The notes below the pieces were generated by a model. It saw nothing but the letters and a program-made list of their open reading frames with translations, was not told the origin of the DNA and made no database searches. From contig NC_091967.1 of assembly GCF_036711975.1 (NCBI RefSeq), forward strand, positions 5,270,001-5,334,000: 64,000 nt of DNA, written 5' to 3'. Position 1 is the stretch's first letter. Each line of letters starts with the position of its first letter. The position numbers and the translations under genes are program-made. The DNA is from Onthophagus taurus. Its lineage: Eukaryota; Arthropoda; Insecta; Coleoptera; Scarabaeidae. Of this stretch, positions 30,701 through 36,700 are shown one piece after another.

Positions 30701-33700
30701 GAATCTTGCCACCATCCTCTTCCCCTCCTCATCCCCCTCCACCGACAGGTACTTCGGCAATCCCTCCGTTATTATTTCCTCGTACTTAGGGTTGTACCTG
30801 CTCTACCTTATCTGCCCCCTTCTTTCTTGCCTCTGCTCTCCAGCTCTTTCCACATCTCAGTCCCTTCCCTCCTTCTATCATCTACCGCTTTCACTGAGTA
30901 CCCCACCCTTCTGAAATATTCCTCCCTCCCTCGTTGCCCGTAACCCCCTTTCCCTGCCTTAATCTCTTTCCAGCACTCCCCCAAAATTTTACATTGAGAC
31001 CTCCCTTCAACCCTCTCCTCAAAACGTACCGCCCTTTTACCCGCCTCCACTGCTTCGACTCTTAAGAGGTCTCGAACTTAAGTATGGATTGGTGTTTTGA
31101 AGAACAAGGTCTATTTCGTAACGCCCAAATTCTTTGGTGGATGTCCCAATGTGGGAAGCACGTTGAGCATCATCATGATTGTTGTCGTTGTCGTTGCAAA
31201 TAGTGTGGAGACTGTACTTTTCGGTTGATATCTCTCTCTTCAACCATCGGTTGTCCACTCTTGAATGAAAGCGTTTTTCATATGTGGCCACCTCAAACCA
31301 TCTGCTTCCCTCGTAGTCTGCTCGTACTGCACTTTGTTATTTTTGGCCGTCACGTCACCTTCGCTGTCTATCTAGCTCTGTCTTGTTTGGCTACATGACC
31401 CACTCATTGCCCTATTAGCTCGGCTACTCGTGCTATTATGATATTTTCATACAAACCGGAACTGTAATTTGAGATAAGTTATTCTAATGTTGTATAAGTC
31501 TTAATAATCATGATATACAAAAGATTATAGAATAGAATATTGTTGGTCCATGACTCTAATTAATTAAAAGGTATTAAGTTATAACGTTATAAATAACGTT
31601 AAAAACAATAATGTACTTATAGTTAAAATTTTTTAGTTCTTTTCGCGTTTATGAATTTTTTATCATGGATTTTAGATGAGTTAAGATCTAAACTATTTAA
31701 GAAGTGATTAGCAAAATTTACCTCAAACTAGTTTCCTTACTTCTACTAATAATCATGAATAATAAATATCTGAAGTTTACAATTTTGGTGGTTTCAAATA
31801 TTAATCTTTAAATTCAACAGAAATGCATTCGACTATGTGTGACATGACATCCTGAATGGATCCTGCGTATTATTGCCTGTCAATCAATAATTTTAATTCT
31901 ACTATTACCAAGTTGTGATGTGTTTTGTACGATTAGTAGAAATCGGGTTATTGTAAATGTTGATAAAAAAGGAATTGATTTTTAAATCAACTTGGTTAAA
32001 TAAAAACTTTTTTAGATCTACCCAAATATTTATCCTGATTGAACTTAGTTTAAGCAACCAAAATCTCTCCCATTTTGTGCTTTATTTCGGTTATAAATCT
32101 TCACAGAAGACTACTCATTTCGTGGTAGAGTGTATAAGATAAATATTTGTTCGGCCGTGTCTAAAATTGGAAAACTTTTTCGGCTGTCTGTTTGCTCTTT
32201 AAATCGGAACGAATTGTTTTAACTTTTTAAAATTCTTAATTAATTTCGTTTCTGTTAGACTGTGACGTTAACATTCATAGAAAATGCGAAAAGTTGACCG
32301 CAAACTTATGCGGAATCAACCAGAAGTTGATTGTTGAAGCGATCGAGTCGGTGAAAAAAGGTAAGATCTATATCATTTATTCTCTCTAATTTCATCACCT
32401 CAAATGGATTGTCACGCGTATTTAAAACGTGTATTTAAAAATGACCATGCTGTAGTTTTAAAACGTAAATCGTTTGGCACCTGAGCAAAAATGTTTGTTT
32501 AAGCAAAACGTTGGCTTGCGGTGCACTCTCTCAACGTGTGATAATTGTGAGAGTTGAGATAATTTTAGCATTTTAGTTCCCACGCATTTATCTTGTTACA
32601 ATTTTTAACAGAAAAATATTTTTGAAATGCCAAAACAAACATAAATACATGTGATATCTACTTTAATGTTGAAAATTTAATAAATATAAACTACAAAAAA
32701 TCTAAAAAAAAATCTATGTTTATCTTATAAAAAAAGATTTGATATTCTAATCCAAATTTAACTTTCTAAAACTCCCTTGAACACCAAATTCAGTTTCGAC
32801 GTCACCACTAACTTTTTTAAATTCATGCGGAACGGGTCCGTTCAATCGCATTTCTCCTCCCATCTGTAGGTACTTTTCCCGAAACCCTACTACTTTGCCT
32901 TTCCAATCCTCATTAATCTCCTTTAGAGGCCTTTGAGGTCCGCCGTAATCACCGGGCAAACATTTCAAAGGCACAAAGTCGCACAACTTATCCACAGACT
33001 TGTGAAAATAAAACTAAAAAATATACGAACCAAAAATGAAACGAATCCCAGATTTAAAACTTTTAACGATTACGAATTATTAAACTTACCCTTTTAATTA
33101 ATTTATCCTTTATCACGGTTTTTAACACGATTAGTATATTTTGTATGAAGGGAATACTTGAAATAACGTGAATCGATTTTATACGAACCGGATACATATC
33201 CAAAGCTAAACTAATCGCTTTTTTTGTAGTGTTCGATAAAAATTTTGCTAAAATTTCGGTTGTTGCTAAAGAAGCATCAATTACAAACACTTCTCCCGCT
33301 ATTAACGTATCTTCATGAACTTTTATATCGGCTAAAACGAAATAATTAAGTACGAAGGCTTTCATGGTTGGGTGTTAATTAAACTAAAACTAGAATTAAT
33401 AGTAGCACTATCACTAGAATTAACACTAGATCTAGAACTAGATAGTTTCGGGTTATGCCGTGCGATTTTTGAAAAAGTGTTTGATGTTACGAATGTCATG
33501 TTGCAACCTTCTTCAGTAACAAGTTCGAAGTTGTTGCAAGTGTAAAATCTAGAACTAACACTATATCTAGAACTAGAATCATTCGGGTTTAGCCGTCTTT
33601 AGAGACGTGCGGCTAAACCCAAATGATTCTAGTTCTAGGTCTAGTGTTAGTTCTAGTTTTACACTAACACTATTACCATATAAAACTAACACTATGGGCT

Positions 33701-36700
33701 AAACCCGAAACTTTCTAGTTCTAGGTCTAGTGTTAGTTCTAGTTTTAATTGTTATGTAGTACTAGACCAAGAACTAGAATCATTTGGGTTTAGTCGTCTT
33801 AAGAGACGTGCGGCTAAACCCAAATGACTCTAGTTCTAGGTATAATGTTAGTTCTTGTGACAGTGCTAGTGTAAAACTAGAACTAACACTAGACCTAGAA
33901 ATAGAATCATTCGGGTTTAGCCGTCTTTAGAGACGTGCGGCTAAACCCAAATGACTCTAGTTCTAGGTCTAATGTTAGTTCTTGTGACAGTGCTAGTGTA
34001 AAACTAGAACTAACACTAGACCTAGAAATAGAATCATTCAGGGTTAGCCGTCTTTAGAGACGTGCGGCTAAACCCAAATGATTCTAGATCTAGGTCTAAT
34101 GTTAGTTCTTGTGACAGTGCTAGTGTAAAACTAGAACTAACACTAGACCTAGAAATAGAATCATTCGGGGTTAGCCGTCTTTAGAGACGTGCGGCTAAAC
34201 CCAAATGACTCTAGTTCTAGGTCTAATGTTAGTTCTTGTGACAGTGCTAGTGTAAAACTAGAACTAACACTAGACCTAGAAATAGAATCATTCAGGGTTA
34301 GCCGTCTTTAGAGACGTGCAGCTAAACCCAAATGATTCTAGTTCTAGGTCTAATGTTAGTTCTTGTGACAGTGCTAGTGTAAAACTGGAACTAACACTAG
34401 ACCTAGAAATAGAATCATTCGGGGTTAGCCGTCTTTAGAGACGTGCGGCTAAACCCAAATGATTCTAGTTCTAGGTCTAATGTTAGTTCTTGTGACAGTG
34501 CTAGTGTAAAACTAGAACTAACACTAGACCTAGAACTAGAATCATTCGGGCTTAGCCGTCTTTAGAGACGTGCGGCTAAACTCAAATGATTCTAGTTCTA
34601 GGTCTAATGTTAGTTCTTGTGACAGTGCTAGTGTAAAACTAGAACTAACACTAGACCTAGAAATAGAATCATTTGGGGTTAGCCGTCTTTAGAGACGTGC
34701 GGCTAAACCCAAATGTTTCTAGGTCTAATGTTAGTTCTAGTGACAGTGCAAGTGTAAAACTAGAACTAACACTAGACCTAGAAATAGAATCATTCGGGGT
34801 TAGCCGTCTTTAGAGACGTGCGGCTAAACCCAAATGATTCTAGTTCTAGGTCTAATGTTAGTTCTTGTGACAGTGCTAGTGTAAAACTAGAACTAACACT
34901 AGACCTAGAACTAGAATCATTCGGGCTTAGCCGTCTTTAGAGACGTGCGGCTAAACTCAAATGATTCTAGTTCTAGGTCTAATGTTAGTTCTTGTGACAG
35001 TGCTAGTGTAAAACTAGAACTAACACTAGACCTAGAAATAGAATCATTCGGGTTTAGCCGTCTTTAGAGACGTGCGGCTAAACCCAAATATTTCTAGTTC
35101 TAGTGACAGTGCAAGTGTAAAACTAAAACTAACACTATACCTAGAACTAGAATCATTTGGGTTTAGCCGTCTTTAGAGACGTGCGGCTAAACCCAAATGA
35201 CTCTAGTTCTAGGTCTAATGTTAGTTCTTGTGACAGTGCTAGTGTAAAACTAGAACTAACACTAGACCTAGAAATAGAATCATTCGGGGTTAGCCGTCTT
35301 TAGAGACGTGCGGCTAAACCCAAATGATTCTAGTTCTAGGTCTAATGTTAGTTCTTGTGACAGTGCTAGTGTAAAACTAGAACTAACACTAGACCTAGAA
35401 ATAGAATCATTCGGGGTTAGCCGTCTTTAGAGACGTGCGGCTAAACCCAAATGTTTCTAGTTCTAGGTCTAATGTTAGTTCTAGTGACAGTGCAAGTGTA
35501 AAACTAAAACTAACACTATACCTAGAACTAGAATCATTTGGGTTTAGACGTCTTTAGAGACGTGAGGCCAAACCTAAATGATTCTAGTTTTAGGTATAGT
35601 GTTAGTTCTACATAGTAACAGTCTTAGTGTAAAATTAGAACTAACACTAGACCTAGAACTATAAACTTTCTAGTTTTAGGTCTAGTGTTACTTCTAGTGA
35701 TAGTGCCACTATTAGTTCTAGTTTTAGTTTAACAAAGTAATTAATTTTTAAATTTTAATAATTAACATTTTTATACCAATTCTGCTTATATATCGGTACG
35801 TTTTGACCAGATCAAAACGATCAACGTTCGAATCAGTTAATTTAATTATAATCACTCTATATCCTTCAGGTGTTAATCTGGGCATCATCACAGCTGAACT
35901 GTAAATTAAATGAAAATTAAATTGGATTCAAAAAGTGTAAAATTATTTAATTATAATAAATTAATTACATGAACTCGGTCGCTTTCATATCGTCATTTAA
36001 CGAACCGATTCGATTTCCCAAAAACTCCGAATTAGTACAACATGCGATAAAATACGTTTGAATTTTCTTTTTCGTCTTTTCCAAATCATGTTTGCAACCC
36101 CTTAAGAATGTTGTTAAGATGGTTTCATCTAAAATAATTATTGTGTAACAACATTTATTTCTTAACTTTCTAAAACAATCTTACCATATCCTTGAGGTAA
36201 ATAACTGTTATATTGAATCCATTCTTTTAATAACTTTAACTTATTAATTAATCTATCCTTATCTTCGCCTAATTCTTCGCGTATTTTGCCTTCTTGAAAA
36301 ATATCGGGGGGACATAACAATTCCATCCTAATAAACGATTTAAACCGCACCAAAGATCTTTTTCAGTCAACTTACGGCTGGCTACTGAGTGTCCGGTTAC
36401 TTTCACCAAGTGTTACGTTTAGTTTTTTTTTGATTGAATAACCACTTTTAAATGTGGCCGGGTTATTAAGTAACTTGAGGATGTAAAATTATATATTTCG
36501 CGTGCGAAGAATTCCGAAATGATATAACAGTTATATAATTATTAGTTTTAAATTTAAATTAAGGGAAAACAATAATAAATAAGAAATGTTATTAATAAAT
36601 TAAGGCCCACTTTTACCACCTCTTGATAAATTTAACCAATAGATAAATTGGCGCTCTTAGCTATTGAGAGCGCTTAAAACTGCTGTAACCATGGTAATTA

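Follow-up and report, generated by a model that had tools for sequence, protein, structure and literature searches.

A palindrome array in an Onthophagus taurus intron as the probable body of a defective Penelope-like retrotransposon

Introduction

How does a string of long palindromes come to lie inside an intron, and does it have a function there? We examined a 64,000-nucleotide stretch of the genome of the beetle Onthophagus taurus (NC_091967.1, positions 5,270,001 to 5,334,000), here called the window. A first-pass annotation had described an array of about 17 near-perfect 127-bp palindromes in introns of two opposite genes, a CRAL-TRIO gene and PKC-delta, and had proposed that it feeds endogenous siRNAs, without identifying a transposon. 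We find that the array very probably makes up the interior of a Penelope-like retrotransposon (PLE) that is defective and non-autonomous and was inserted in a predicted 50-nt CRAL-TRIO intron.

Results

The array is 2.4 kb long, and the ends of the transposon described below place the element boundaries at 33350-35737. The head-to-tail arrangement is real, but the figure of 17 units is too high: we located the centres of 16 palindromes (33590 to 35545, each in + orientation), and TRF reports a 127-bp unit in 15.1 copies (33761-35658).

33549..35610, + strand: 16 palindromic units, mostly at 127-bp spacing, each a half T, a 16-nt asymmetric centre and an inverted half T

The capacity to form long hairpins was borne out. 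Folding was run on 127-nt pieces, four in all: both strands of one unit, another unit, and a piece of the array at 39 kb. Their energies, between -49.9 and -64.6 kcal/mol with z from -7.8 to -11.6, were far stronger than those of shuffled sequence, none of 200 shuffles per piece matching the native fold. "Near-perfect" was an overstatement, as identity between the ungapped 38-nt arms averages 86% in the window array, ranging over 74-92%, and none of 80 units in a pooled sample has perfect arms. Identical mismatches recur across many units of the window array. Over the whole window, Rfam detected no structured-RNA family at its gathering score, and a known structured RNA was set aside as the identity of the array. 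A search of 10 loci gave 31 sub-threshold matches, all bearing microRNA-precursor names and none reaching its own gathering score, which we read as what long hairpins yield.

The arms of an endo-siRNA hairpin should be maintained as complements. In the window array, within-unit arm identity was 0.8635, compared with 0.8633 for shuffled pairing (P 0.64), so there was no co-variation of the arms. Two arms taken from one unit are no more alike than two taken from separate units, and this array therefore gives no sign of selection for pairing. Among eight other array loci, arms were associated in one (L008, P 0.022). Pooling all 80 units gave P 0.0015, which we read as reflecting differences between loci.

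The sequences bordering the palindromes have the layout of a PLE, the left end consisting of tail, T and U in that order and the right end of an inverted T.

33343..33349, strand not assigned: left copy of the target-site duplication, 7 bp, TAATTAA (flank comparison)
33350..33383, strand not assigned: PLE tail, of a pattern present genome-wide
33375..33459, + strand: terminal-repeat part T, with an inverted partner (70-nt arms, 91%)
33452..33531, + strand: terminal-repeat part U, containing a decayed hammerhead-like core
35663..35732, - strand: inverted T without tail, the other end of the element (inverted repeat)
35738..35744, strand not assigned: right copy of the target-site duplication (flank comparison)

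Allowing up to 3 mismatches, the genome contains 1058 occurrences of the 33-bp tail pattern. The palindromes occupy the place where PLE coding sequence would be. No coding region was found in the window copy; because no frame within 33350-35737 exceeds 78 aa, this copy is at most a non-autonomous derivative, and it is assigned to the PLEs from its ends and from its relatives. The hammerhead-like core (- strand, 33483-33516) is present once and is altered in its CGAAACGTC part.

We looked in the family for the hallmarks of PLEs, namely a reverse transcriptase (RT) of the telomerase-like clade, a GIY-YIG domain, inverted pLTRs with a tail, variable target-site duplications and a minimal type I hammerhead. 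RT is present in relatives. At locus L044, T, U and the tail follow two ORFs, one of which matches RVT_1 (E 3.6e-13) and contains YVDD. The second contains the string CGKYYVGQTG, which we take to be GIY-YIG-like; Pfam named no family there. Of 2233 RT candidates, 150 matches were scored. We took the direction of the RT as reference in 20 RT-centred loci: U lay downstream in 15, inverted in all of them, and upstream in 6, in all 6 on the + strand; one of these (L070) also had an upstream - copy. Both ends were visible in 4 loci, and 3 had no U within the stretch examined. Fuller members of the family have the order T-U ... U-T around the RT region with an extra tail at one or the other end, and in the window copy the inverted ends bear a tail on one side only. 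A DNA transposon, which we had first considered on account of the inverted ends, was set aside once RT was found in the relatives.

The hammerhead-like core string occurs at 32 places in the loci examined, in the U part of the relatives, and an Rfam scan of 10 loci yielded no hammerhead with E <= 1. In side checks on telomeres, TCAGG x6 was absent from the genome and TTAGG x6 occurred at a single internal place, compared with 10 for a reversed control pattern; a Telomerase_RBD profile search gave no match, its controls being equally silent.

Target-site duplications of variable length are evident at the level of the family. The flanks of 17 paired elements shared words of 7.35 bp on average, versus 3.99 bp after shuffling (maximum of 200 shuffles, 5.47), and 9 of the 17 shared a word of at least 7 bp (shuffled mean 1.6, maximum 5). 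In the window copy, the 7-bp match directly adjoins the element ends.

Two of the nine matches of at least 7 bp (the window and L031) sit 20-24 bp from the element end. The duplication in the window is short and AT-only, and the flank-test script ranked above it a 9-bp word lying at a distance of 24 bp.

On the - strand, a CRAL_TRIO exon match at 33093-33374 (E 4.2e-4) reaches 20.6 bits, below the cut-off of 22.6. The array lies within the adjoining predicted intron.

33332..35776, - strand: CRAL-TRIO intron, 2445 nt, splice sites predicted by eye

Removing the insert together with one duplication leaves a predicted 50-nt intron, GTATAA...TTTTAG, and brings the CRAL-TRIO exons into an open joined frame. 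A single insertion, 18 nt from the predicted 3' splice site, thus accounts for the lengthening of this predicted intron, 50 nt before and 2445 nt now. We also considered that the PLE tail, out of which an open frame runs, had been exonised, and dropped the idea because a pyrimidine-rich acceptor, TTTCGTTTTAG|CC, between tail and exon gives an open joined frame. On the + strand, kinase exons were found at 38817-39119 (Pkinase, E 1.2e-30) and 41250-41507 (E 3e-10). The claim that the array lies in introns of both opposite genes stands on the CRAL-TRIO side, with its sub-cut-off exon match and restored intron; the kinase side is partly by eye, since it depends on an upstream C1-domain match at 32240-32386 that falls below the cut-off (E 0.021) and on a kinase start placed by eye at ~36.9 kb. 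The array lies in a long inverted repeat within a region that, from gene position, would be transcribed, and it is transcribed, if at all, owing to its intronic position.

The palindrome is abundant. Its centre has 10,547 genomic copies at up to 3 mismatches (control, 0), confirming that the family is widespread. Because all share the same asymmetric centre, a single founder is suggested. Other members lie in the window.

39190..41208, + strand: second array, flanked by kinase exons and showing a 587-bp higher-order period
1494..2021, - strand: smaller array of the same family (repeat comparison)
15926..16152, + strand: single palindrome of the same family (repeat comparison)

The family sites first reported around 1.5, 15.9, 26.2 and 39-41 kb are thus genuine (1494-2021, 15926-16152, 26213-26283 and 39197-41208), while the one at 5.7 kb is only a fragment of ~27 bp. 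Exact 21-mers of the window array recur at 786 further positions of the window, and nine other array loci have 34-382 such positions apiece. PLE loci contain 0-34 of them in 25 of 26 cases; the remaining locus, with 173, itself holds palindromes (L086). Like a satellite, the family has many head-to-tail copies in several arrays, and these are dispersed and short.

We used kinase exons as a coarse proxy for gene regions, on eight long contigs (114 of 133 kinase matches). The comparison sets were 48 of 50 exact tails (42 after one C7 cluster was thinned by hand) and 67 RT rows from the upper part of the 150 listed; palindromes and arrays were taken from among the matches listed, with neighbours merged by script or hand and other contigs dropped. 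The 36 palindrome loci listed were nearer kinase exons than random points (P 0.004), with P 0.08 relative to tail loci, P 0.04 relative to RT loci and P 0.07 once distance to contig ends was matched. For the 36 array hits listed, the values were P 0.0004 relative to random points and P 0.03 relative to tail loci, all P values here standing as single tests, uncorrected for number. Tail and RT loci were no nearer kinase exons than random points (P 0.64 and P 0.66). The bias of arrays toward kinase-rich regions is modest and leaves the small-RNA idea unrefuted, and simpler explanations exist.

Discussion

On the best reading, the array is a dispersed palindromic satellite that derives from a transposon, is transcribed passively and is possibly diced. 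The composition of the palindromes suggests that each is an inverted pair of PLE repeats that has collapsed. Collapse of an inverted T-U ... U-T pair, probably once, would leave a half T, the 16-nt centre and an inverted half T, with loss of the hammerhead-like core. The collapsed palindrome would then have been amplified in head-to-tail series and have spread both within PLE copies and next to them; one palindrome-bearing copy would have landed in the CRAL-TRIO intron. The enlarged intron may still be spliced, and the array presumably has no selected role. The family would thus display the likely stages from fuller PLE through inverted-repeat pair and collapsed palindrome to array, a satellite-like family tied to one retrotransposon family.

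The strong folds, seen for one unit on both strands, the position in introns of opposite genes (on the kinase side partly by eye), the exact 21-mers elsewhere and the proximity of array loci to kinase exons are also what a functional hairpin-RNA locus might show, in which intronic hairpins yield Dicer-2 21-nt siRNAs that restrain PLEs or repeat-bearing genes. There are published precedents: 21-nt siRNAs ascribed to Penelope inverted repeats in D. virilis (PMC3136932) and siRNAs ascribed to the Tribolium TCAST1 satellite (PMC4537270). We nevertheless consider such a locus unlikely, given the lack of arm co-variation in the window array, the mismatches common to many units and the scarcity of array 21-mers in PLE loci; a single PLE insertion explains the location, the array being its interior. 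Less likely again is that intronic collapsed-repeat arrays form a distributed trap whose diced siRNAs restrain PLEs and tune palindrome-bearing genes, although this would explain the bias to gene-richer regions. If the arrays are diced, they offer many natural hairpins for testing how satellite or transposon siRNAs act on genes.

Retrozymes of animals occur as short tandem repeats (PMC7229834), and an array made via rolling-circle RNA through a hammerhead ribozyme would fit the core string in the U part of the relatives. The palindromic units, however, lack both U and the core, the window's single core is altered, and Rfam calls no hammerhead, making this origin very unlikely. A foldback DNA transposon of the Tetris/FB type, with tandem units inside terminal repeats, would share the long inverted ends, internal tandem repeats and target duplications described for Tetris (PMC4079207). 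It is highly improbable here, as the same repeats flank RT in relatives, the window copy has a tail at one end only and the target duplications vary in length.

The PLE reading can be set beside three described systems. Transposon-like TCAST elements of Tribolium castaneum resemble the O. taurus family in the repeats of their long inverted ends, which are likely to form hairpins, and in their euchromatic dispersal close to or within genes, introns included (PMC3411249). The likeness is drawn from their description; some TCAST copies have 3-bp ACT duplications, and that paper does not use the word Penelope. The Tetris foldback element of D. virilis, with its TIR-220 satellite, likewise carries tandem repeats inside a foldback-like mobile element that feeds satellite-like arrays, but is reported as a DNA transposon amplified in beta-heterochromatin (PMC4079207), whereas our palindromes accompany RT and their array loci lie nearer kinase exons than random. 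The third description is that of Adineta vaga Pen families and D. virilis Penelope, with inverted pLTRs, an optional 31-bp tail on one of these, 8-10-bp target duplications and palindromes at inverted junctions (PMC3846280). The O. taurus family shares with them inverted terminal repeats, a one-sided tail, target duplications and, in its relatives, RT; it differs in amplifying the collapsed palindrome itself, to thousands of units.

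The array lies inside a Penelope-like element

The ends of the region that contains the array pair with each other (33379-33448 with 35663-35732; 70 nt, 91%). When the left end was matched across the genome of 290.8 Mb in 33 contigs, in which the window spans C2:5270001-5334000 (40 matches scored among 746 candidates), many matches extended outward by ~20 bp more, and a 33-bp left-end pattern occurred 1058 times at ≤3 mismatches (control, 0). In some copies, coding sequence adjoins this end. At one such locus, L044, a reverse transcriptase (RT) ORF (RVT_1, E 3.6e-13) contains YVDD, which we take to be the RT motif, and a second ORF, to which Pfam assigned no family, contains the string KYYVGQTG, presumably GIY-YIG-like. 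These are components of a Penelope-like element (PLE).

The family's terminal repeat consists of two successive parts, which we call T (outer) and U (inner); a tail can lie outside T. We oriented 20 RT-centred loci by their RT. In these, U was downstream in 15 loci, inverted in 15/15, and upstream in six, forward in 6/6. Both ends were present in 4/20 loci, and U was absent from the ~3.4 kb examined in 3/20; one of the six loci with U upstream, L070, also had an inverted U copy there, within a small T-U-U-T element. Tails were downstream of the RT in seven loci and upstream in five. These orientations and positions mean that the terminal repeats of the family are inverted and that either end can carry the tail. 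The array sits inside a transposon, organized as follows:

33343-33349, target duplication, left, 7 bp
From 33350, tail
33375-33459, T
33452-33531, U
Between U and inverted T, 16 palindromes
35663-35732, inverted T
35738-35744, target duplication, right, 7 bp

The longest frame within this element is at most 78 aa. On the minus strand, its U part contains CTGAAGAAGGTTGCAACATGACATTCGTAACATC, and the U of relatives contains CTGAAGA...CGAAACGTC at 32 places among 88 loci, some of which overlap. We read the putative hammerhead-like core of the window copy as broken. As Rfam detected no hammerhead at E ≤ 1 among 10 loci, the hammerhead label is provisional. PLE hammerheads are described as rare minimal variants (PMC7229834), and one is described in an Anolis PLE (PMC11167929).

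We examined target duplication in 17 elements with both ends, using 200 flank shuffles. The longest word common to both flanks averaged 7.35 bp, compared to 3.99 bp in shuffled flanks (largest shuffle, 5.47 bp). Words of at least 7 bp were found in 9/17 elements (shuffles: mean 1.6, maximum 5), and 8/17 fell below 7 bp. Two of the nine cases (locus L031 and the window) score via words 20-24 bp off the element end; the window duplication listed here is the adjacent 7-bp match instead of the flank-test word. Thus, the family duplicates its target.

Insertion into a small predicted intron

The first-pass annotation placed the array in introns of two opposite genes. The array is within a predicted intron of a minus-strand CRAL-TRIO gene. 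On the plus strand, a PKC-type gene appears to hold this gene in one of its introns. Downstream kinase exons are clear, and a C1-domain match upstream is weak (E 0.021). With the insert and one duplication removed, the intron is GTATAAAAATG...TTTCGTTTTAG (50 nt), and the flanking exons, when joined, read open; by this insertion, a small intron would have grown to 2445 nt. The PLE tail now stands just 18 nt from the CRAL-TRIO exon (33332-33353), so any branch point must be in the transposon or at its edge. On the minus strand, TACTTAAT crosses the tail/intron junction.

Elsewhere in the window (28784-30016) are transposon-like genes: DDE_Tnp_4 on the plus strand (29537-30016, E 7e-14) and a MADF-domain protein on the minus strand (28784-29551, E 2e-5). 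They may be of the Harbinger type.

The hairpins and their arms

Tandem Repeats Finder detected a 127-bp periodicity at 33761-35658. An array was indeed present where about 17 head-to-tail units had been proposed, but our count was 16, the palindrome centres running from 33590 to 35545 at a spacing of mostly 127 bp. We folded one unit on each strand, another unit, and one from the 39-kb array, all as 127-nt pieces; z-scores ranged from -7.8 to -11.6, with 0/200 shuffles as good for each. The hairpins are far beyond shuffles. The arms, previously called near-perfect, match well but fall short of that and are on average 86% identical (range 74-92%; ungapped, 38 nt, window array).

In the second palindrome array (39519-41057), blocks at 39519, 40106, and 40693 form a higher-order period of 587 bp. 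Two more tandem arrays, at 44653-46169 (175 bp x 8.5) and 48365-52111 (181 bp x 20.8), show no relation to the palindromes by eye.

Between units of the window array, identity was 0.92 for left arms with left arms and 0.92 for right with right; for left-right pairs, it was 0.847 when both arms came from the same unit and 0.846 when they came from different units. Random re-pairing of the arms gave 0.8633, compared to 0.8635 observed (P 0.64), revealing no co-variation in this array. At eight further loci, the same test gave P values from 0.02 to 0.91 (the single low value, 0.022, at array locus L008), and 80 pooled units, a pool that mixes loci with differing variants, gave P 0.0015. The units look homogenised as tandem repeats, and mutual complementarity of the arms is not maintained.

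Origin of the palindrome unit

In each unit, a 16-nt centre (GTCTTTAGAGACGTGC) separates half of T from an inverted half T. By eye, this centre looks like the beginning of U and its complement, the remainder of U being absent. The simplest source would therefore be loss of the middle from a T-U-U-T pair. A 36-bp core of the asymmetric centre has 10,547 genomic copies at ≤3 mismatches (control, 0), which suggests a single founder; at 127 bp each, these copies would amount to ~1.3 Mb. PLE pieces directly adjoin palindromes at two loci (L074 and L086), and palindromes occur with tails or terminal parts in the window and at L004, L020, L021, L036, and L067. As the loci were mostly fetched by PLE features, no rate of palindrome/PLE co-occurrence can be derived.

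Genomic distribution

Among the loci listed, 22/35 merged loci with exact 60-bp palindromes and 23/36 best array matches were ≤5 Mb from a contig end (32% expected), as were 12/48 exact tails; contig ends may not be chromosome ends. RT-bearing copies were also near contig ends (42/66 merged loci listed, within 5 Mb). TCAGG x6 was not found in the genome, and TTAGG x6 occurred at one site only, which is internal. A telomerase domain search gave no match, and its controls were equally silent.

Using kinase exons as a proxy for genes, and the matches listed on eight contigs, we found that palindrome loci (P 0.004) and array loci (P 0.0004) were nearer to these exons than random points, and that tail loci (P 0.64) and RT loci (P 0.66) did not differ from random points. 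Compared to tail loci, P was 0.08 for palindrome and 0.03 for array loci; for palindrome loci, it was 0.04 compared to RT loci and 0.07 when matched for contig-end distance. These contrasts reveal a modest bias of palindromes and arrays toward kinase-richer regions.

Small RNAs and relation to known systems

In strain 160 of D. virilis, Penelope yields mostly 21-nt siRNAs, which the authors thought to stem from long inverted repeats in the transcripts and whose germ-line silencing role they doubted (PMC3136932). In Tribolium, siRNAs from the TCAST1 satellite have been proposed to act after heat shock, silencing genes close to its dispersed copies (PMC4537270). By analogy with these precedents, it is plausible that the window array is diced into siRNAs. 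Among 26 PLE loci (20 RT-centred and six with a PLE end), 25 have 0-34 exact 21-mer positions in common with the array; the exception, L086 (173 positions), itself has palindromes. Nine array loci share 34-382 positions. Given these counts, any effects of dicing would mostly concern other arrays.

Inverted PLE repeats, transposon-derived satellites, and gene-associated beetle satellites are each already known; their combination looks new. Within the Penelope literature covered (titles and abstract openings, mostly from non-subscription journals, on palindromes, satellites, tandem or inverted repeats, PLE terminal repeats (pLTRs), hammerhead ribozymes, and Tribolium satellite DNA), we found no description of a PLE-derived palindromic satellite. 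PLEs are described as having inverted pLTRs, an optional 31-bp tail, and 8-10-bp duplications, and palindromes at inverted PLE junctions have been attributed to self-priming (PMC3846280). The window family resembles the Adineta-type PLE described there, as both have inverted terminal repeats with a tail on one.
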